This document shows positions 1 to 15,493 of a DNA stretch of 43,786 nt, one piece after another. This DNA comes from a virus: positions 1 through 43,786 of IMG/VR virus record IMGVR_UViG_3300010885_005644; one strand, 5' to 3'. The notes under the pieces were generated by a model. The model was not told the DNA's origin and searched no databases. It saw only the letters and a program-made list of their open reading frames with translations. How positions within the stretch are numbered: position 1 is the first letter of the stretch; the number at the start of each line of letters is the position of its first letter. Both the position numbers and the translations under genes were made by a program.

Positions 1-294
1 ACCCGGTGACTTGATACACATTATATAACAATCTTCTAAAAATTCTGGGTCAGCTACTTCATAGGGCTCAATGATAAACAATTCGCCCGCTTCGATAGTT
101 TCACCGCATATACGCATACTACCACGAACTAATAAATTGTATTCTGTGCCTAGCTTATGGTAGTGGTCTGGCCACTCTTGGCCTTTTGGATGAAATAGGT
201 AACCTACTTCAAATTGTTCAGTCTTTAGTACACTGGGTTCAAAGTTGCCAATGAACCAACCGCGTGTGAAATCTGTTAGCTGATGTCGTTTCAT
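1..294 (-). CDS. Cupin-like protein (partial, C-terminus outside window)
   Basis: An open frame reads from the ATG at 294 to the window edge without a stop, giving 98 residues. The start overlaps the stop of the preceding gene (ATGA), so the two are probably translationally coupled. The middle reads H-x-K-x-x-T-E-Y-N-L-L-V-x-G, then G-E-x-x-x-A-G-E-L-F-I-I-E-P. This is the alternating beta pattern of a small cupin barrel, with His and Glu suitable for metal binding. Coming directly after a nucleotidyltransferase-HAD fusion, it may be a sugar-handling cupin (isomerase or epimerase type). That role is inference; the fold call is moderately safe. Confidence 0.6.
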   Translation of the reverse strand, partial: MKRHQLTDFTRGWFIGNFEPSVLKTEQFEVGYLFHPKGQEWPDHYHKLGTEYNLLVRGSMRICGETIEAGELFIIEPYEVADPEFLEDCYIMCIKSPG

Positions 295-1388
295 AAACCG
301 TAGTCTGCCCAGCTGATGCTGTCAAAGCCTTCGTTAGTAACCACATTAACGCCAACAGCACGATCAGTATCTAGACGATTCAGTTTGTCATTGACCAATA
401 CACGTTCGCCGCCGCCGATACCCATAACCAGCTGATCCCATGCAATGCCGTGTTGTCTTAACTGTTGCTCAGTAATAGCGCGAGTGCTTTCTTTACGTGC
501 TGTACACAAGATTATCTTATGCCCGTGACTGTCCCATTGGTTAATCTTGTTAACAACTCCGGGCAGCGCCTCGCTAGGTTCACTGTATACTTGACTGATA
601 GTGTGTACATGTTTAAGTATAGTACCATCAATGTCAATGAATAAGGTCTTGGGTTTCTTGGTTTTGAATTCGTTTACCTTGCCCACATGTCTAGCAACGT
701 CCTCGGGTGTTCCCAATGGAATGTACACATGATCTGCAATGTGATAAGGTAAGATAGTGCTGTTGTCGGGCAAATAGTTAAATGTTTCGCTGATGTAACA
801 TTCAGGTTTACCGTTTTCTCTGAAGTAGTCCATTAACTGGCATGAACTATCAACAAAGTCTCGGCCCTGTGCCCAATAATGGAATCCAATTAAGGCGTGA
901 TCGCTAATGGCTTCTTTTTCAACTAGGCGTGTAATAAGTCCGTCTTGAATTTCAGCAAAACTATTTTTAGGATCGCGACTGTTGTAAAGCACCAATGCCG
1001 CTTCGGGTTGTTTAGTATTGACAAAATTTAAGAAACTGTCGGCGTCCCAATTAATAGCTTGGTCGCAGTTGTAAATTACCAGCGGATCGGTATTATCAAT
1101 ATACTCTCGTGCCAGCAATGCTGTTTCTGTTGCACCCGACGTTAATTTCTTAACACGTATCTCAACAGATTCTGGACGTAGCTGTTTAAGCAATGTCGAC
1201 AGTTGGTCATTATGCGCCGGATTATCAAACTCTCTGGTGATAAAGATAAAACGACCCGCAACATCAAAACTTTCGATACTGTGTTGGATAAGTGTTTTAC
1301 CCAAAACTTCAATTAAAGGTTTTGGGGTAGCAATGCCTACTTTTTGAAATCTGGTGCCTGCACCAGCCATGGGTATTAGAATATTCAT
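291..1388 (-). CDS. Nucleotidyltransferase-HAD phosphatase fusion
   Basis: 365 residues in two domains. Residues 1-235 look like a sugar-phosphate nucleotidyltransferase: the N-terminal A-G-x-G-T-R-F loop (about 8-14), K23-P24, a central Y-N-C-D-Q where such enzymes place the metal-binding Asp, and a late G-T-P-E-D. Residues 248-365 look like a HAD-superfamily hydrolase: F-I-D-I-D-G-T-I with D252 and D254 as nucleophile and acid/base, a C-T-A-R segment as motif II, and a C-terminal V-N-D-K. The combination suggests activation of a phospho-sugar or phospho-alcohol with NTP and removal of a phosphate from a related intermediate, as in capsule or LPS precursor pathways. Substrate unknown. Coupled to the downstream cupin gene by a 4-base overlap. 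Confidence 0.8.
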   Translation of the reverse strand: MNILIPMAGAGTRFQKVGIATPKPLIEVLGKTLIQHSIESFDVAGRFIFITREFDNPAHNDQLSTLLKQLRPESVEIRVKKLTSGATETALLAREYIDNTDPLVIYNCDQAINWDADSFLNFVNTKQPEAALVLYNSRDPKNSFAEIQDGLITRLVEKEAISDHALIGFHYWAQGRDFVDSSCQLMDYFRENGKPECYISETFNYLPDNSTILPYHIADHVYIPLGTPEDVARHVGKVNEFKTKKPKTLFIDIDGTILKHVHTISQVYSEPSEALPGVVNKINQWDSHGHKIILCTARKESTRAITEQQLRQHGIAWDQLVMGIGGGERVLVNDKLNRLDTDRAVGVNVVTNEGFDSISWADYGL

Positions 1389-1412: not shown

Positions 1413-2894
1413 TTACTTCCTAGCCAGAAAAGTTGTGAAACAATAATGAGCATTTATAATCCTGACTGGGGTAAAGCCAATGGCTTTTAAGTTTTCAAAG
1501 TACCATTCAGGAGGATTAACAAACATAATCTCTTGCACACTACGAGCTTTGTTAATTATTTCCGTTTCGGTAACTCCGTTACGGCGTTTAAAATCGTGGT
1601 ATAGCTCTAACTCAACCCCATCGTTAACTGTTTTATCGGACAGTATTAACATACCCCCGGGCAACATGTTACGGTATATGTTTTGTAAATAGGATAGCTT
1701 GTCCTTGACAAAATGCAAAGTCCAGTTGCAAATTACCACCGAATATGGACCTGTATCTATTGGAAATAGATTGCTCAGAATATACTCGCCGGGATTCTTT
1801 TTTGCGTAAGACAGCATGTCTTCGCTTGAATCTACTCCTACTAGATTCTGGAATCCTGCATTGTTTAATCTCTTAAGTGTTTCGCCTGTGGCGCAACCAA
1901 CATCGATTATTTTATCTGTCTTTTTGAATTCTTTAATGCAAAGTTGTACACTTCGAGCAATAACTTCATCGTAGTTTGGTATATGTTGTCTAGCGTGTTT
2001 GACAAACATTCCGGCTACTTCAGAATTAAATTTCCACGTGTTGTCTTTAAAACTGCCAAAGTCGATGGTAGAATTTGCATTTCTTCTAACCGATAAGTCT
2101 GGATTGGTATAGCTAGTTTCAAAGTCAATGGGTTTCTTTACTTGTGCATTTTTAGAAAACAATCCATAGTATCGATTATTAGTATCAACTGGAAATAGTT
2201 TTCTGAGTTGCTCTGTTAACTCTGTAGCAGAGAAATCAAAATTTGACAGTATGATTTCTAGTGCAGGGAAATTTGGGCTTGCACCAGTGATAACATGGCT
2301 CTTTTCAAGTTCTTCGCCTACCATCTGTTGATTTTTTACATACTCAACCAAAGGCAATTTTTTAATGCTATCAAGTTCTCTAGTATTCTCTAACAGTTTG
2401 TTTAGGTATATTGTTTCATTAGAATCTACTGCAATGTGTGTGGGATTTAGATCAACTACCTTACGTAGCATATCCTCAAAGAATATACCTTGATATATAA
2501 CACCAAACAAACTTACAAAGTCAAATTTTTCTGTGTTTGAATTAAAAAAGTCTATTAGGGATAATTCTTTAATTTCCCAATTACCATTGGGCAATCTATT
2601 TGTTAGATTTGTACGTGCTTTGTTGCAAAAATCTTTTTGTAGTTCAACACCAACATATCTTGTAGCACCATTGGTCAGTGCCCATGCTCCGGTCGCGCCC
2701 ACAGCACAGCCAAGATCCAATACACTTAACCCTTGAATAAGGTCAGGCGGCATCATAACTTGATGCCTTGCATGTTGAAACTCGGCATTGACATTGTACC
2801 CGCCGAATCCTGTATTTGTTCTTTTAACTCGTGGATCGGTGTCAATGAATTCGTTCCATTCAACAAAGATATTAATAGATTTTAGAAATGTCAC
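1413..2894 (-). CDS. Tandem methyltransferase with CmoA-like C-terminal half
   Basis: 493 residues with two class I SAM-binding domains. The first has D-L-G-C-A-V-G at 60-66 and a later F-G-V-I-Y-Q segment. The second has D-V-G-C-A-T-G at 331-337. The second half matches the carboxy-S-adenosylmethionine synthase CmoA well beyond generic motifs: a W-x-F-x-x-x-V-A...I-x-x-Y-D-E-V-I lead-in (287-312), N-W-T-L-H-F at 390-395, P-G-G-M-L-I-L-S-D-K, then H-D-F-K-R-R-N-G at 433-440 and an A-R-S segment (R451) matching the K-R-S stretch of CmoA. The N-terminal half could be the acceptor-modifying partner (CmoB-like), but that link is weak. The start is GTG with AGGA six bases upstream, 15 bases after tRNA-Trp, so it is probably cotranscribed with the tRNA cluster. 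Confidence 0.75.
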   Translation of the reverse strand: MTFLKSINIFVEWNEFIDTDPRVKRTNTGFGGYNVNAEFQHARHQVMMPPDLIQGLSVLDLGCAVGATGAWALTNGATRYVGVELQKDFCNKARTNLTNRLPNGNWEIKELSLIDFFNSNTEKFDFVSLFGVIYQGIFFEDMLRKVVDLNPTHIAVDSNETIYLNKLLENTRELDSIKKLPLVEYVKNQQMVGEELEKSHVITGASPNFPALEIILSNFDFSATELTEQLRKLFPVDTNNRYYGLFSKNAQVKKPIDFETSYTNPDLSVRRNANSTIDFGSFKDNTWKFNSEVAGMFVKHARQHIPNYDEVIARSVQLCIKEFKKTDKIIDVGCATGETLKRLNNAGFQNLVGVDSSEDMLSYAKKNPGEYILSNLFPIDTGPYSVVICNWTLHFVKDKLSYLQNIYRNMLPGGMLILSDKTVNDGVELELYHDFKRRNGVTETEIINKARSVQEIMFVNPPEWYFENLKAIGFTPVRIINAHYCFTTFLARK

Positions 2895-2909: not shown

Positions 2910-2983
2910 TGGCGGGCTGGCAGGGACTCGAACCCCGACTAACGGTTTTGGAGACCGTAGTACTGCCATTATACTACCAACCC
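2910..2983 (-). tRNA. tRNA-Trp (CCA anticodon)
   Basis: A full cloverleaf can be drawn on the minus strand. The acceptor stem pairs 2977-2983 with 2914-2920, the anticodon loop is CTCCAAA, the T loop is TTCGAGT, the discriminator is G, and the 3' CCA is encoded at 2910-2912. The G discriminator agrees with tRNA-Trp. It is the last of three tandem tRNAs before the CmoA-like gene. Confidence 0.93.
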
Positions 2984-2989
2984 ATAATA

Positions 2990-3065
2990 TGGAGCGGGTG
3001 ATCGGGGTCGAACCGACGACAATCACGTTGGCAACGTGGCGCTCTACCAGCTGAGCTACACCCGC
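2990..3065 (-). tRNA. tRNA-Gly (GCC anticodon)
   Basis: Cloverleaf on the minus strand: acceptor arms 3059-3065 and 2994-3000, D arm with AGCTCAGCTGGTAGAGC, anticodon loop TTGCCAA, T loop TTCGACC, discriminator T and encoded CCA. It closely resembles bacterial tRNA-Gly(GCC). Confidence 0.95.
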
Positions 3066-3072
3066 ATAAAAC

Positions 3073-3148
3073 TGGTACTGGGTACGGGAATCGAACCCGT
3101 CTTACTGACGTGAAAGGCCAGTGTCCTAAACCGATAGACGAACCCAGT
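3073..3148 (-). tRNA. tRNA-Glu (TTC anticodon)
   Basis: Minus-strand cloverleaf with a perfect seven-pair acceptor stem (3142-3148 with 3077-3083), anticodon loop CTTTCAC, T loop TTCGATT, discriminator A and encoded CCA at 3073-3075. It is the first of the three tandem tRNAs. Confidence 0.95.
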
Positions 3149-3277: not shown

Positions 3278-4459
3278 ATGGACAAATCAAAAACCTATTG
3301 CGTAATGCCACATTTGGGCATGGCACTACAAAACGAATCAGACTTCTGTTGCTGTAATACAAATAAGGAAAGTTGGAAAACTGGTAAACATGAAATAATG
3401 CATGTTTACACTCATCCTATACGAAATGCTTATAAGAGCTATACACGTAAAATGATTGCCACTGCACTAGACAGAGGTATACGCCACGAAAGCTGTAGTA
3501 AGTGCTGGGCACACGAGGATGCCGGTGCTACCAGTCCCAGACAAGAGTTTAACAGCATGTTTGGGCATTTAGAGCCACTTGCAGATCAACCACGTGTGCT
3601 TATTATCAAACCAGGGAATACCTGTAACTTTGCTTGTCGTATGTGCATGCCAATAGCAAGTAGCAACTGGTATCAAGATGGATACGCACTGACAGATCAA
3701 AAAATTAGTTATAACGAATATACAAAAACATTCGAAATTATTCGTAATAGTTTTAATCGAGACAATGATGATTTTTGGGCCACCTTACGTGATTGGATGC
3801 CAGGATTTCATTTCATTGATATCTACGGCGGAGAACCATTCTTAGTTCCTGCTATGTTTGACTTACTTGAGTACGGTGTTGACCAAGGTTATGCCAAAGA
3901 CATTACCTTGCGTATGCACACTAATGGAAGTATGTATAATGAAAAGTACTTGAAGATCTTAGCAGGATATAAAAAAGTTTTATTCTATGTAAGCATTGAC
4001 TCAGATGAACCTGCACACCTGGAGTATATTAGACACAAGGCTATCTTTAGTCAATTGATTGAAAATATTGGTAAGTTTAAAGAATTTATCAGTAAGTGTC
4101 CCAACATTGAGTTTAAGGCCACATATACTGTTACCAGTTATAATATTTACTACCTAGACCAAGCCAAAGCCAATATAACTAACTTAACAGGATTAACTGT
4201 GGGCGAAAATATTGTTGTGACTCCTGACGAGCAAGACATACGTCACTTGCCTACTGCTGTTAAACAGATGCTGATACGTCGCACTAAAAGTAACGACATG
4301 CGAAACTTTCTGGAACAAACCATTCCTGGTTGTAGTGTTTGGTGGCCCGAGTTCTGTAAGAAAACAGACGAATTAGATCGTCTGCGTGGTCAAAGTTTTC
4401 AAGATACATTCCCCGAGTGGTGGACTCACTTAGAATCACACTGGGGTGTATACGCTTAG
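3278..4459 (+). CDS. Radical SAM enzyme with N-terminal twitch-like domain (1 of 4)
   Basis: 393 residues. The radical SAM signature is C116-x3-C120-x2-C123 (C-N-F-A-C-R-M-C), with a G-G-E-P SAM-binding motif at 184-187. Before the core there are extra cysteines: C8, C24-C26 and a C73-x2-C76 pair followed by a Glu. This is the layout of phage radical SAM proteins whose SPASM/twitch-like auxiliary cluster domain comes first. Substrate unknown; relatives with auxiliary clusters act on peptides or small molecules. It is the only plus-strand gene in the left 20 kb, is transcribed away from the tRNAs, and its stop overlaps the stop of the convergent oxygenase gene. The start is supported by a TAAATA motif five bases upstream. 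Confidence 0.85.
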   Translation: MDKSKTYCVMPHLGMALQNESDFCCCNTNKESWKTGKHEIMHVYTHPIRNAYKSYTRKMIATALDRGIRHESCSKCWAHEDAGATSPRQEFNSMFGHLEPLADQPRVLIIKPGNTCNFACRMCMPIASSNWYQDGYALTDQKISYNEYTKTFEIIRNSFNRDNDDFWATLRDWMPGFHFIDIYGGEPFLVPAMFDLLEYGVDQGYAKDITLRMHTNGSMYNEKYLKILAGYKKVLFYVSIDSDEPAHLEYIRHKAIFSQLIENIGKFKEFISKCPNIEFKATYTVTSYNIYYLDQAKANITNLTGLTVGENIVVTPDEQDIRHLPTAVKQMLIRRTKSNDMRNFLEQTIPGCSVWWPEFCKKTDELDRLRGQSFQDTFPEWWTHLESHWGVYA

Positions 4460-6340: not shown

Positions 6341-6425
6341 TGGTGCCCAGGGTCGGACTCGAACCGACACGCCTCACGGCACGAGCTTCTAAGACTCGCA
6401 TGGCTACCAGTTACATCACCTGGGC
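6341..6425 (-). tRNA. tRNA-Leu (TAG anticodon)
   Basis: Class II tRNA on the minus strand with a long variable arm (GCC-GTGA-GGC), acceptor stem GCCCAGG/CCTGGGC, anticodon loop CTTAGAA, T loop TTCGAGT, discriminator A and encoded CCA. In E. coli, tRNA-Leu(UAG) carries cmo5U at the wobble base, which is relevant to the CmoA-like gene at 1413-2894. Confidence 0.93.
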
Positions 6426-6442
6426 AATACTATACTTATACT

Positions 6443-6518
6443 TGGTGGGCCCACTTGGATTTGAACCAAGGACCAAAGGATTATGAGTCCTCTGCTCTTA
6501 CCACTGAGCTACAGGCCC
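6443..6518 (-). tRNA. tRNA with CAT anticodon, probably tRNA-Ile2
   Basis: Minus-strand cloverleaf with anticodon loop CTCATAA, T loop TTCAAAT, discriminator A and encoded CCA. The body (AGCTCAGTGGTAAGAGCAG, then a variable region reading TTGGTC) is closer to bacterial tRNA-Ile2, read as AUA after lysidine modification, than to elongator tRNA-Met. The identity is inferred from similarity in memory, not computed. Confidence 0.85.
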
Positions 6519-9622: not shown

Positions 9623-10071
9623 ACAACAATATCTTCCATTCCGGCTGTACGTAATCTAACCACATGTCCTAGCATAAAGTTCTTTGACTCAATGCCTTTC
9701 ATAACACCTAGCCATTTGTTACGTAACAAGGCTACTTCGTTAATGATAGTTTCCATATCAATAACTTCATCTTCTGCTTCTGCATACTTTTCAGCATCTC
9801 GACTTGTGAGTGCTCTAGCGTATGCTTCTAAATATTTTTTGTAGTGTTTTTGTCTAATCCTACGCAACTGTATGTTAAGATGTTCTAGTACCGCTTCAAT
9901 TTCTTGTAGTTGGTTAAATCTGTGTTCTGTTTCACCGGGCAAATTACTCAGTTCTTTTTCAACTTTGCCATGAATTTTAATATGGCCTTTGGCCGCCGCA
10001 AGTTCCCGTTCATAGTAGTCTATGAAGTCGGGAATTTCTCCTAGATTTGCAACTACTTTATTATACCACAT
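9619..10071 (-). CDS. uvsY: UvsY-like recombination mediator
   Basis: 150 residues, close to the 137 of T4 UvsY, almost entirely helical and charged. The C-terminal part (a long helix, then G-I-E-S-K-N-F-M-L-G-H-V-V-R-L-R) matches the pattern of T4 UvsY, where A-I-K-S-R-G-F-A precedes a short helical tail. UvsY loads UvsX recombinase on gp32-coated single-stranded DNA. The position in the same operon as uvsX and gp32 supports the call. Both ends are coupled: one base overlaps the upstream radical SAM gene and four overlap the downstream gene. Confidence 0.7.
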   Translation of the reverse strand: MWYNKVVANLGEIPDFIDYYERELAAAKGHIKIHGKVEKELSNLPGETEHRFNQLQEIEAVLEHLNIQLRRIRQKHYKKYLEAYARALTSRDAEKYAEAEDEVIDMETIINEVALLRNKWLGVMKGIESKNFMLGHVVRLRTAGMEDIVV

Positions 10072-11330
10072 TATTCGATTCCATTCTCTGTAAAGTACCG
10101 ATTAATATCAGGAAATAACTCTCGCCAATTAGTGTGCCGTCTTAGATCAAATTGATCTAGAGTTTGCTTTAACTTGCCTAACCGACCCAAGTCTTGTTTA
10201 CTTGATCCTACTAATTTTACTATACTTTCCAATCGTTGTCTAGCAGTATTGTCCCAGTCTTGAGTGATTGGGTAATTGGCCAGTAGTTCAGTTAACTGTG
10301 CTTGAAAGAATTCTGGGCCAAATATCTCAGGCCGGTACATTAACTCGTTTGGTCCATCCACTGCGTGATATGCTTGTGTAATGTTTGGGTTAGTCTGTTT
10401 CCATTCGCCAATCTTACGCTGAAACTCCAAGGTAGTGCCAATGCTTAAATTGGATACTACTTGATGCACATTAATATACAACCACTTGTGACTGATTAAA
10501 TATTCAAAATTTTCTTGCCACCTTGTTAAACTCAATCCATTGCGTATAAACTCTGCCTGTGGTCCCCAGCAGTCCAGGCTACAGCTGATGTCTACTCTAC
10601 GTATACGCTTTTCTGATATCAGCTGTTTGGCTATGTCAACAAATTTAGTAACTGTTGCAGGATTGGCATTTAGATTAGTGTTGATATGAAACTCTAACTC
10701 TGTGTGTTTACGCTTACTCATGAAGTCCAGGACATTCCAAAACTCTTTTTGTAGTAAGGGTTCGCCACCCAATATATGTAGTCGTAAAATACCTGTATAG
10801 TTCTTATCTAGCCAATCCAAGTAGCGTTCAAGATACTGTTCTTGATTACTAACCGGAATAATTGGCGGCAATCCTACAGGATATGGACCGTATTTTTTTA
10901 GTTCTTCGTTAATTCTACTGCTGTATATGGGCAAGCAATATACACAAGCCAAATCGCAAGTATTATTAAGATACAATTCAGCAATGCGAGGAGTTGCTAT
11001 TGTTGATGCATTAAAATCTACAGGAGTTAATCCAGGTATGGCATTATGAAATGTGCGGTCGCTCACACCCCCTGCCTGTTCCATATCTTTACAGTACTCA
11101 CAGCCACGTCCTGCCTTGGGCCATTCGCCTGCCAACATGCGAGCACGATCGTCTTGCACTTCTGGGGTATTATTAAATGTGTCGAACTGGTCTATGCTGA
11201 CATAAACGGGTTTAACTCTATGACAACTAGAACTTTCGCCTGTGTACAAACGGAACGTGTTCCAGGACCATTTAAATACACAAGCGGCATCGTTTTTGAT
11301 TGGGAAGACTTTACCAGTCGCCGTCATCAT
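10071..11330 (-). CDS. Radical SAM enzyme with N-terminal twitch-like domain (2 of 4)
   Basis: The core signature C-D-L-A-C-V-Y-C lies about 130 residues from the N-terminus, followed by H-I-L-G-G-E-P-L-L-Q. Upstream are isolated cysteines and a C-E-Y-C-K-D-M-E motif, the CxxCxxxE element shared by all four radical SAM proteins here. The frame is open to 11375. The paired ATG ATG at 11330/11327 is preferred because it limits overlap with the upstream acidic-protein gene to about 20 bases and puts the first cysteine near residue 16, as in the paralogs. It lies between uvsX (plus the acidic protein) and uvsY. Substrate unknown. Confidence 0.85.
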   Translation of the reverse strand: MMTATGKVFPIKNDAACVFKWSWNTFRLYTGESSSCHRVKPVYVSIDQFDTFNNTPEVQDDRARMLAGEWPKAGRGCEYCKDMEQAGGVSDRTFHNAIPGLTPVDFNASTIATPRIAELYLNNTCDLACVYCLPIYSSRINEELKKYGPYPVGLPPIIPVSNQEQYLERYLDWLDKNYTGILRLHILGGEPLLQKEFWNVLDFMSKRKHTELEFHINTNLNANPATVTKFVDIAKQLISEKRIRRVDISCSLDCWGPQAEFIRNGLSLTRWQENFEYLISHKWLYINVHQVVSNLSIGTTLEFQRKIGEWKQTNPNITQAYHAVDGPNELMYRPEIFGPEFFQAQLTELLANYPITQDWDNTARQRLESIVKLVGSSKQDLGRLGKLKQTLDQFDLRRHTNWRELFPDINRYFTENGIE

Positions 11331-11541
11331 CTTCGAGTTCGTCTTCATCCTCTTCGACATATTCTCTAAGAGCACGTTTTAGAGTTGGGTCAGTGGAACC
11401 AAATTCTTTAAGTTCTTTGTCGCCCAGCATGTCAACCATAACACTCATTAAGTTGTCAGCGCATTCCTGGCGATCTTTGCTGGGAACGTACTGTTTCATA
11501 ATAATATACAGTTCGCTTAACACTTCAACTTCAATACTCAT
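11311..11541 (-). CDS. Small acidic-tailed protein, 76 residues
   Basis: Not recognised. The helical N-terminal half contains one Cys. The last 16 residues are almost all Asp/Glu and end in G-D-W, like the acidic protein-interaction tails of single-strand-binding partners. The start overlaps the uvsX stop (ATGA) and the end overlaps the radical SAM gene, so it is coupled to both. It may be a recombination accessory factor. A radical SAM substrate peptide is a weaker alternative. Confidence 0.7.
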   Translation of the reverse strand: MSIEVEVLSELYIIMKQYVPSKDRQECADNLMSVMVDMLGDKELKEFGSTDPTLKRALREYVEEDEDELEDDDGDW

Positions 11542-12849: not shown

Positions 12850-13998
12850 TTATATAATTGAATATAGGTCTTTAAAAATTTTACTACTGTCTAACTTTCT
12901 TCTTGTATCTAGAATTTTTAGTTCTTTGATTGTACTATTTAAATCTTTCTCAAACGGTTGATCGCAATGTGCTAACAAATTACGATATCCATCTTCTAAC
13001 AAAAATCCAGGACGTTCTTTAATCCTAGACTCTAGTATTTGCTTTATAGATTGTAACTGGCTTTCTGGTAAATGTCTAGTATCAAAGTGTCCAGGCCATT
13101 TTACTGCTGTTAATATAAATGCGTTTGGACCAAAGCCTTGATCTCGAAAATAATCAATTGTAGTAAATATGCTTCGAGCATTTAGTATAGTCCAAACCAT
13201 ATTAAATGTAATCTTGTGCGGTAGAGTTCGAATCTTTTCTAAGTTGTTTAAAAAATTGGACCATACACCGCCGTAACGCATATATTCAAATTCTTCACTC
13301 ATACTTTCTGCGCTAACAGTCCAATGTATATTTTTAAACTGGCAAAGTAAATCTAGTATTCGTGTTTCTGTTTTGCTTAGATTGGTATTTACTCTGATCA
13401 TTACATCAGGATTTTTTTCTAATAGTAATTGCAGGAACTCTTCATTCTCACGCATCAACAAAGGTTCGCCTCCGGCCATATAAACATTTTTAAGTTGATG
13501 GGCATTGCTGAATATATAATCTTTGAGTTCTTGCTTACGTTGTTCGCTAGGTTGCTCTACATGTAAGTTGAGTTCGCTGGCCCATTTGCTACTTAATATA
13601 TGGTCGCAATAAACACAGGCATGGTTACAAGTATTTGACCAACGCACATCAACTTGATGCAGGTCAAATGTGTCTGCCTTTTTATATAACTCTGAATCTA
13701 CTTTTTTGAGTTCTTTAAGGTAGTATACTCTACTGCTGACAATATCAAATGACCGTTTATCTTTTTCCAAACTATAGCAGTATCCACAAGTGGCCGGTTC
13801 CTGTTTTGCAAGTATCTGCGTCTTTGTTGCTGTATTCTGTTCACCATGGAGAATGTTTTGGATCGAATCATCTTTTAAATTACCTATTGTTTCGTAACTA
13901 CAAATGCAATTCTTTACTGCGCCAGAAGTGTCAACATAAAACCCTGTCCAGGGAATAGGACAAAAGGCCTTGTTGGTTAACATTTCTTTTGGCGTCAT
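12850..13998 (-). CDS. Radical SAM enzyme with N-terminal twitch-like domain (3 of 4)
   Basis: 382 residues. The core is C124-x3-C128-x2-C131 (C-N-H-A-C-V-Y-C), with G-G-E-P-L-L about 40 residues later. The N-terminal 80 residues read like a SPASM half placed first: F-C-P-I-P-W near residue 12, S-G-A-V-K-N-C-I-C near 25-33, G-N-L-K-D-D-S-I, then C-G-Y-C-Y-S-L-E at 71-78. This is the clearest auxiliary-cluster domain of the four. The start overlaps the SDR stop by four bases. Substrate unknown. Confidence 0.88.
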   Translation of the reverse strand: MTPKEMLTNKAFCPIPWTGFYVDTSGAVKNCICSYETIGNLKDDSIQNILHGEQNTATKTQILAKQEPATCGYCYSLEKDKRSFDIVSSRVYYLKELKKVDSELYKKADTFDLHQVDVRWSNTCNHACVYCDHILSSKWASELNLHVEQPSEQRKQELKDYIFSNAHQLKNVYMAGGEPLLMRENEEFLQLLLEKNPDVMIRVNTNLSKTETRILDLLCQFKNIHWTVSAESMSEEFEYMRYGGVWSNFLNNLEKIRTLPHKITFNMVWTILNARSIFTTIDYFRDQGFGPNAFILTAVKWPGHFDTRHLPESQLQSIKQILESRIKERPGFLLEDGYRNLLAHCDQPFEKDLNSTIKELKILDTRRKLDSSKIFKDLYSII

Positions 13999-14525
13999 AA
14001 TTTCTGTCCTAGACTAATGTCTGGAATGTCTAAATTGTTGGCGTCTGCCATGCGTAGAATAGAAACTAGTACTCGTGCCCATAGTGCTGGATCTGCGCCT
14101 TCTTGTAATTCTGGATGTGTGGCTACCATGCCGGGGCGCACTAAAGTAATCTGCGGACCAGACATTTTATAACGTAACTGTGCTACTGCATCTTCTAATG
14201 CACGTTTTTGTAAATGATATTCTTCCAATCCTGGTACTACTGTAGCAGGAAACTGTGCGAGCATTGTGCTGATAACCACAATACGTTTAGGTGTTGATAT
14301 CCAACGCTTGTGTACTTCTAATAGTAATTCTGTTTGTGCGTAGCCTACTTGAGCATTGTTAATAAACATGTCACATACTTCAATGACATCTGCTACCTTA
14401 GGAGTACTACGAATGTTAAAACCATTACCACGACTTAGACCCACAATAGTGTGTCCTTCCTCTTGGTATGCTTGAGCTAGTGCTTGCCCAATACCGGCTG
14501 TGTGTCCTGTGATTGCTATCTTCAT
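13995..14525 (-). CDS. Short-chain dehydrogenase/reductase (compact)
   Basis: 176 residues, shorter than the usual 230-260 of the family. It has T-G-H-T-A-G-I-G at 6-13 (nucleotide-binding T-G-x3-G-x-G), N-N-A at 56-58, a Ser near 86, and Y103-x3-K107, so the catalytic set is complete. R-P-G-M-V-A-T follows at the expected place. The substrate loop at the C-terminus is reduced. It is coupled by 4-base overlaps to radical SAM genes on both sides, suggesting all three act in one pathway. Cofactor NAD(P)H; substrate unknown. Confidence 0.88.
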   Translation of the reverse strand: MKIAITGHTAGIGQALAQAYQEEGHTIVGLSRGNGFNIRSTPKVADVIEVCDMFINNAQVGYAQTELLLEVHKRWISTPKRIVVISTMLAQFPATVVPGLEEYHLQKRALEDAVAQLRYKMSGPQITLVRPGMVATHPELQEGADPALWARVLVSILRMADANNLDIPDISLGQKL

Positions 14526-15493
14526 TGAATGTAGTCCTGAATACTTATGCCTCGCAATTGATCCTGGGCTTGAATAAACTGATCAAGTTCTGCTGTGTTA
14601 TCTCTATCTACAGCAATATAATCAACCAGGTGTTCTACACTTTCTTTGGCCGCCAAGGTAAAACGATTCTTGTACTTTATGTTCAATGGATCCGGACTGT
14701 CTAGTAATGCCCAACTATGATCAATGTCATAACGATCAGCTAACTGTACCAAGTATGGAAGTTGAGCCACATTAAGCGCATTAACTGTGGTCCACAGATT
14801 TAAATTGACATCCATGTCCCGATAAACACTTATGTTATATATAACTTTTTCCCATTTGATGGGCCAACGTACATAGTCGTGTACCGGTCCTGCACCATCA
14901 AAGCTAACTGTTACAGTAACATCAATACCACGTGCTACTAGATCTTCTAATTCAGTTAATACTGTGCTACCATTGGTATTAAGTCTGATACTTTGTACGC
15001 TATTGGGTAAGTTGGCCAAGATGTTTTTATAGTTCTTACTGTGTGCTGGTTCGCCGCCATTTAAATCTAAATGTGTAACACGGTCAACAGGCAATTCCCA
15101 AAAGCGATTGGTATTGTCCACAATAGGATAGGTCTTGGATTTTAAACTGCCAATTTTAGTACTTAAATCTTCATTGCAAAATTGGCAAGCACTATTACAA
15201 ATGTTATCCAGTACTCCGCCTACCACAAGGTAGTCATCTAATAGTTGAGTCTTTTCAAACTCAATTGAGTTTGTTCTGATACTTGAGCCGCTGATGTTTT
15301 CTGTTTGTTCACAACGACCACATTCGGTTGGCCATTGGTTTTGATTAAGTTGATCTCGAACTGTACGTAACCATTTACTTGAATCCATTTGATCTAGTGT
15401 ATCAAATTGTGGTGCATTAACCATATGGCCACAACGGCTAACAGTACCGTTGGGATTAAAACGCACAAAGTGGTCTAGCCTAGGACAGCGCAT
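14522..15493 (-). CDS. Radical SAM enzyme with N-terminal twitch-like domain (4 of 4)
   Basis: 323 residues, the shortest of the set. The core is C99-x3-C103-x2-C106 (C-N-S-A-C-Q-F-C), with L-N-G-G-E-P. The N-terminal domain has C3, F-N-P-N-G-T-V-S-R-C (C21) and C-G-R-C-E-Q-T-E at 58-65, again a SPASM-like half ahead of the core. It overlaps the sulfotransferase gene upstream by 19 bases and the SDR gene downstream by four. Substrate unknown. Confidence 0.87.
   Translation of the reverse strand: MRCPRLDHFVRFNPNGTVSRCGHMVNAPQFDTLDQMDSSKWLRTVRDQLNQNQWPTECGRCEQTENISGSSIRTNSIEFEKTQLLDDYLVVGGVLDNICNSACQFCNEDLSTKIGSLKSKTYPIVDNTNRFWELPVDRVTHLDLNGGEPAHSKNYKNILANLPNSVQSIRLNTNGSTVLTELEDLVARGIDVTVTVSFDGAGPVHDYVRWPIKWEKVIYNISVYRDMDVNLNLWTTVNALNVAQLPYLVQLADRYDIDHSWALLDSPDPLNIKYKNRFTLAAKESVEHLVDYIAVDRDNTAELDQFIQAQDQLRGISIQDYIQ

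Follow-up and report, generated by a model that had tools for sequence, protein, structure and literature searches.

The locus studied here raised the question of whether a single viral polypeptide can both make carboxy-SAM (Cx-SAM) and use it. CmoA makes this compound from SAM and prephenate, and CmoB then makes cmo5U34 in tRNA. To our knowledge, only a few Cx-SAM users are known: CmoB, CmoX, TglF, and the C-terminal domain of MccB. The window, meaning the whole stretch of DNA that was analysed (43,786 nucleotides), was a 43.8 kb virus record that is probably a fragment, and its tail sheath, terminase, and RecA/SSB-like genes, recognized by reading only, gave it a T4-like look. The gene of the two-domain protein (P0001) was located at 1413..2894 on the minus strand, with a GTG start at 2894, an AGGA upstream of this start, and 493 codons (493 aa); relatives of equal length were found in viral and bacterial contigs. 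An earlier note on this DNA had placed the interval correctly, but the strand of the gene is minus, and the plus strand of the interval was full of stops. Promoter-like sites near the gene were not commoner than in shuffled sequence. A nucleotidyltransferase fused to a HAD-type phosphatase was encoded 24 nt downstream (291-1388, minus strand) and was absent beside the relatives of the fused gene. The window also encoded four radical SAM-like proteins, at 3278-4459 (+), 10071-11375 (-), 12850-13998 (-), and 14522-15493 (-). Three of this set were matched by PF04055 (one below the gathering score) and one had a SPASM domain, and the fourth was recognized by reading only.

The C-terminal domain (aa 287-493; 1416..2036, minus strand) was predicted to be a CmoA-like Cx-SAM synthase from matches to TIGR00740, PHROG 4752, and the sequence and fold of CmoA in the PDB. 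A linker (aa 266-286; 2037..2099, minus strand), predicted to be disordered from full-length-model pLDDT values under 50, separated it from the N-terminal domain. The C half matched the CmoA model TIGR00740 with an E-value of 3.6e-23 (82.5 bits), PHROG 4752 with 4.7e-47, and the PDB CmoA 1im8 with 2e-19, and 4gek and 4iwn were also matched. The domain was well predicted in the full-length model, and CmoA chains topped the Foldseek list, with a TM to target of about 0.8 at 2.6-3.2 Å. A single-domain relative was used for comparing families, which excluded the summing of scores over two domains as an artefact; it scored 84 bits to CmoA versus 55 bits to the next family. Another relative, 45% identical, was fused and full-length. 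CmoA outscored every other methyltransferase family and the fold agreed, and at the level of sequence the likeness of the C half to CmoA was far beyond chance. The motifs quoted for it earlier were all found, namely W287-x-F-x-x-x-V-A, NWTLHF (390-395), HDFKRRNG (433-440), and ARS (450-452). NWTLHF (1710..1727, minus strand) was equivalent to N132-F137 of CmoA (NFTLQF), which contacts Cx-SAM as known from the structure paper (PMC3663124). In the alignment, the EcCmoA residues W18, Y39, D62, G64, N132, and F137 were all conserved; the last five, which are contacts of Cx-SAM besides R199, corresponded to Y308, D331, G333, N390, and F395, respectively. The domain was therefore similar in fold and contacts to CmoA (TIGR00740; PDB 4gek, 4iwn, 1im8) but differed from it by a score below the equivalog cut-off of 193.3 bits, by Ala in place of both R199 and S66, and by its fusion to a second transferase. 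SpCmoA of phage S-B43, which was taken as a yardstick, was likewise below the cut-off with 115.6 bits, and it is an assay-proven Cx-SAM synthase with a kcat of 2.3 per s (PMC12783734). PHROG 4752 matched the C half alone, and its name, "tRNA methyltransferase", is an annotation and not a tested function. In a tree of C domains, the fused and split forms made up their own clade, apart from the sampled bacterial and phage CmoA.

The N-terminal domain (aa 8-248; 2151..2873, minus strand) was a class I SAM-fold transferase, proposed to be a Cx-SAM-dependent carboxymethyltransferase from its AlphaFold2 model, Foldseek, conservation, and hhalign. The model had a pLDDT of 88 and a pTM of 0.88, with an extra hairpin at 183-207, and its Foldseek matches were scattered over many methyltransferases, with CmoB near the top and not first. 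Residues F10, D20, R22, D60, G62, E84, D125, and G131 were invariant in 37 N domains, as was R241 in all 36 that reached it. CmoB contacts Cx-SAM through K91, Y200, and R315 (PMC4482062). In hhalign, the N domain aligned with CmoB at 96% over the core and GVIY134 was paired with GVLY200, so Y134 was equivalent to Y200; most bacterial forms contained GxLYH, equal to GVLY200H of CmoB. Residue R241 opened the last strand, where R315 of CmoB sits, and R22 (or R25) was located ahead of the first strand at a distance similar to that of K91; by position, outside the hhalign alignment, these residues may be the counterparts of R315 and K91. The CmoB role proposed earlier for this half agreed with the core alignment and with Y134, and failed in two other respects: the CmoB model TIGR00452 gave 29.9 bits, over the core only, against a cut-off of 275 bits, and the N-terminal domain of some 100 residues that is specific to CmoB and near which K91 lies was absent, with about 57 residues before the first strand versus about 125 in EcCmoB. 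An identity with CmoB (TIGR00452; PF08003), from which the inserted hairpin at 183-207 also set the domain apart, was rejected on the score and the missing domain. An identity with CmoX, a DNA cytosine C5-carboxymethyltransferase, was rejected because a search of the fused protein with PF00145 (C5-methyltransferase, SPPC motif) gave no match. The net charge of the N domain was acidic, as is that of CmoB, and gave no discrimination.

The joining of a CmoA-like domain to a second SAM-fold domain, as described in the earlier note, was seen not only in the window but as a pair conserved among viruses. One search with an N-domain pattern gave 48 loci. With those of earlier searches included, 37 distinct viral N domains scored above 100 bits, most of them found through the N-domain pattern alone; one was cut by a contig end, which left 36 loci. 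The N domain was fused to a CmoA-like domain in 21 of these, had one within two genes in 12, and was without it in 3, so that the C domain accompanied it in 33 of 36. The window fell in a mainly split clade of the C-domain tree, which was built quickly and had several long branches, and in which at least four changes between fused and split forms were needed. Therefore, the N and C domains appear to have been repeatedly joined or parted together, and the recurrence of this union argues strongly for a common pathway. Several single loci had features of their own. A 740 aa relative (L060, 1616-3835) contained an extra N-terminal domain of about 260 residues before both SAM-fold domains. A tryptophan-halogenase-like gene was located just upstream of the fused gene in L057 (1237-2880; PF04820, 1e-58) and L058 (2938-4581); both loci also contained 2OG-oxygenase-like genes, and L057 a carbamoyltransferase-like gene, as judged by reading. 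TctC-type tricarboxylate-binding genes adjoined the split pair or a lone N domain in L004 (910-1893, confirmed by PF03401), L008 (3369-4322), L027 (6819-7790), and L039 (4222-5265).

Full-length fused relatives were also found on contigs of Thiothrix lacustris, Leucothrix, Thiocapsa, and other Gammaproteobacteria, as lone genes in neighbourhoods unrelated to each other. Among 63 genomes surveyed from the Thiotrichales, the order of T. lacustris, CmoB was present in 50, canonical CmoA in 47, and the full fusion in 7. In the 50 CmoB-positive genomes, canonical CmoA was missing from five of the six with the fusion (G038, G040, G042, G076, and G096; G043 retained it) versus one of the 44 without it, and this sole exception (G058) had a CmoB cut by the contig end. 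The Fisher test gave P = 1.7e-5, a value that overstates the strength because related genomes are not independent. Near-complete assemblies were among the five, at 4.28 Mb (G096) and 5.10 Mb in one contig (G076). Beyond the Thiotrichales, three genomes (G044, G046, and G047) likewise contained the fusion and CmoB without canonical CmoA, and two (G045 and G180) kept CmoA alongside the fusion. A CmoA fragment adjoined CmoB in G037, both CmoA and CmoB were absent from four fusion-bearing genomes (G039, G041, G048, and G300), and G244 contained CmoB and a stand-alone C domain with no canonical CmoA. A class-wide sample of 369 genomes gave seven matches, six of which were full fusions. Most simply, these patterns mean that CmoA can be replaced by the C domain, and since CmoA was missing from most CmoB-positive bacteria with the fusion, this domain most likely makes Cx-SAM. 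Replacement of CmoB by the N domain was unsupported because the fusion-bearing bacteria mostly retained CmoB. Lone CmoA-like genes were seen elsewhere as well. One was carried by a contig assigned to a Klebsiella pneumoniae MAG, which was closely similar to a contig from an uncultured gammaproteobacterium (L081 and L082), and the Klebsiella label looks like a binning error. In Okeania (L091, L092, L094, L095, and L096), lone CmoA-like proteins were encoded near 2OG-oxygenase-like, sulfotransferase-like, and methyltransferase-like genes, as judged by reading; these loci are perhaps a natural-product cluster using Cx-SAM.

We consider that carboxymethylation is carried out by this protein in two steps, with a Cx-SAM synthase and a dedicated carboxymethyltransferase in one chain, and put the probability of this reading at about 0.58. 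The C-terminal domain would convert SAM and prephenate to Cx-SAM, and the N-terminal domain, as a dedicated Cx-SAM user, would transfer the carboxymethyl group to an acceptor. A synthase on the same polypeptide or in a neighbouring gene would make the transferase independent of the low Cx-SAM supply of the host. What was observed is the presence of two domains, the conservation of their pairing, the likeness to CmoA, and the absence of CmoA from most fusion-bearing bacteria that keep CmoB. We infer from them that the C domain of the window itself is active as a Cx-SAM synthase and that the N domain uses Cx-SAM rather than SAM.

A narrower form of the same explanation, possible but rather unlikely, is that the protein performs one step of a phage small-molecule pathway with a metabolite or peptide as the acceptor. 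Cx-SAM feeds natural products elsewhere (PMC10491745). In TglE/TglF (3-thiaglutamate) and in MccS with the C-terminal domain of MccB (microcin C-like), a CmoA homologue works with a non-tRNA carboxymethyltransferase, as may be the case here, although synthase and transferase are separate there; this comparison was by literature only (PMC10491745, PMC9239234). Many viral loci contained radical SAM, Trp-halogenase, class IV aminotransferase, 2OG-oxygenase-like, desaturase-like, or TctC genes. However, no gene cluster was common to more than 8 of the 36 viral loci, and the bacterial fusions, standing alone amid unrelated genes, were a better fit to a self-sufficient enzyme with a ubiquitous acceptor.

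Two ordinary SAM-dependent methyltransferases in tandem, similar to the two-domain phosphoethanolamine methyltransferases that were among the fold matches, were the next alternative to be weighed; the likeness to CmoA would then reflect ancestry without Cx-SAM activity. The C-domain score below the CmoA cut-off agrees with this alternative, and so does the arginine column. In EcCmoA, R199 binds the carboxylate of Cx-SAM through a salt bridge (PMC3663124). The earlier note had placed this conserved Arg at 451, which was one column off: in an alignment of 17 sequences, K449-A450-R451 (1542..1550, minus strand) aligned with K198-R199-S200 of EcCmoA, so that the Cx-SAM-binding column was Ala and the next column was Arg. 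R451 was accordingly rejected as the carboxylate-binding residue. Among the viral relatives, this column held A, E, Q, N, or K, often without a basic neighbour, whereas Arg was present in 9 of 12 fused C domains from bacteria, and most of the bacterial forms read Lys-Arg there. The Arg was thus not aligned in the window, and CmoA was still the best-scoring family. SpCmoA has Glu at the R199 column and Lys in the next, as against Ala and then Arg in the window; since this proven phage enzyme is also without Arg there (PMC12783734), the missing residue was judged non-decisive, and R199 was rejected as the decisive test of a Cx-SAM synthase. The low score of the same enzyme, the higher score of the C domain to CmoA than to any other family, and the apparent replacement of CmoA by bacterial relatives where CmoB persists all argue against tandem methyltransferases, which we regard as unlikely.

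The neighbouring tRNA genes suggested another alternative. Three of them were located on the same strand directly upstream of the fused gene, namely tRNA-Trp (CCA) at 2910..2983, 15 nt away, tRNA-Gly (GCC) at 2990..3065, and tRNA-Glu (UUC) at 3073..3148, and their spacing suggests the cotranscription that had been claimed for them; a functional link is putative. The fused gene was in or beside a tRNA array in about a quarter of the viral loci (the window, L003, L005, L026, L032, L035, L045, and L047). L005, L026, and L045 had arrays of 22-24 tRNAs for most of the amino acids, and the fused gene was located within or next to the array. Action on tRNA, one of the targets named in the earlier note, was weakly linked to the adjoining genes because phage tRNA arrays also gather unrelated cargo and the tRNA-Trp, tRNA-Gly, and tRNA-Glu next to the gene are not cmo5U substrates. 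As the note had stated, tRNA-Leu(UAG), which is among the cmo5U substrates (PMC6599085), was present in the window, at 6341-6425 (6341-6518 together with tRNA-Met), and further substrates were found in other phage arrays. The C domain might accordingly supply Cx-SAM to the CmoB of the host and raise cmo5U in host and phage tRNAs, with the N domain as an auxiliary methyltransferase. In several bacteria, an intact CmoB was accompanied by no CmoA-like protein other than the fusion, and none of 27 viral records contained a CmoB above the cut-off, both consistent with such a supply. The N domain would be dispensable for it, yet it was paired with the C domain at nearly all viral loci, and together with the three non-substrate tRNAs this makes the supply of host CmoB quite improbable.

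The published CmoA-CmoX-CmoY system of Synechococcus phage S-B43 resembles the present pair in having a phage CmoA relative and a presumed dedicated transferase; here, the partner was not a cytosine C5-methyltransferase and was often on the same polypeptide, and no clear CmoY was found (PMC12783734). PP-loop, asparagine-synthetase-like ORFs were located near 16 of 34 pair loci versus 2 of 11 control loci, and they resembled CmoY solely around the PP-loop motif; no excess was claimed because the control set was too small, and the link to an amide ligase was left as weak. Hypermodification of phage DNA by a different DNA carboxymethyltransferase and amide ligase, although phage CmoA serves DNA modification in the known case and these ORFs are frequent, is very improbable, as the frequency in the small controls was not clearly lower, the fused gene was also found alone on bacterial chromosomes, and PF00145 was absent from 36 of the 37 viral records carrying the family (one had it), which disfavoured a cytosine C5 route through CmoX and makes cytosine C5 an unlikely target of a CmoX-type enzyme.

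For the two-step carboxymethylation enzyme that we prefer, tRNA would be the leading candidate acceptor, at somewhat less than even odds, followed by a common metabolite and another macromolecule, which appear about equally probable. Tentatively, the protein could be a self-contained enzyme of phages and sulfur-oxidising bacteria that uses its own Cx-SAM to carboxymethylate a novel site or base in a nucleic acid, with tRNA as the likeliest target, and that has taken over the role of CmoA in these bacteria. A phage CmoA and its carboxymethyltransferase, CmoX, were already published in 2025 (PMC12783734), which partly anticipates the novelty claimed in the earlier note; no fused CmoA-transferase was found in the part of the literature searched, which is no proof of novelty. 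In that literature, CmoB, CmoX, TglF, and MccB are described as proteins separate from CmoA or its homologues; MccS was rejected as a one-protein precedent, since in the papers the synthase MccS and the transferase, the C-terminal domain of MccB, are separate.

The R199 column carries a warning that a rule based on this residue misses divergent Cx-SAM synthases. The fusion family was also present in cultured Thiothrix and Leucothrix, and the CmoB-positive, CmoA-negative genomes predict that Cx-SAM is supplied there by the fused protein, which is directly testable. The pair recurs in dozens of phages, and its fused form also in some sulfur bacteria without CmoA; its probable role is to produce and then consume an unusual cofactor. 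If this is true, a further type of Cx-SAM user, coupled to its own synthase, would be widespread in uncultured phages, and carboxymethylation would be a broader chemistry.
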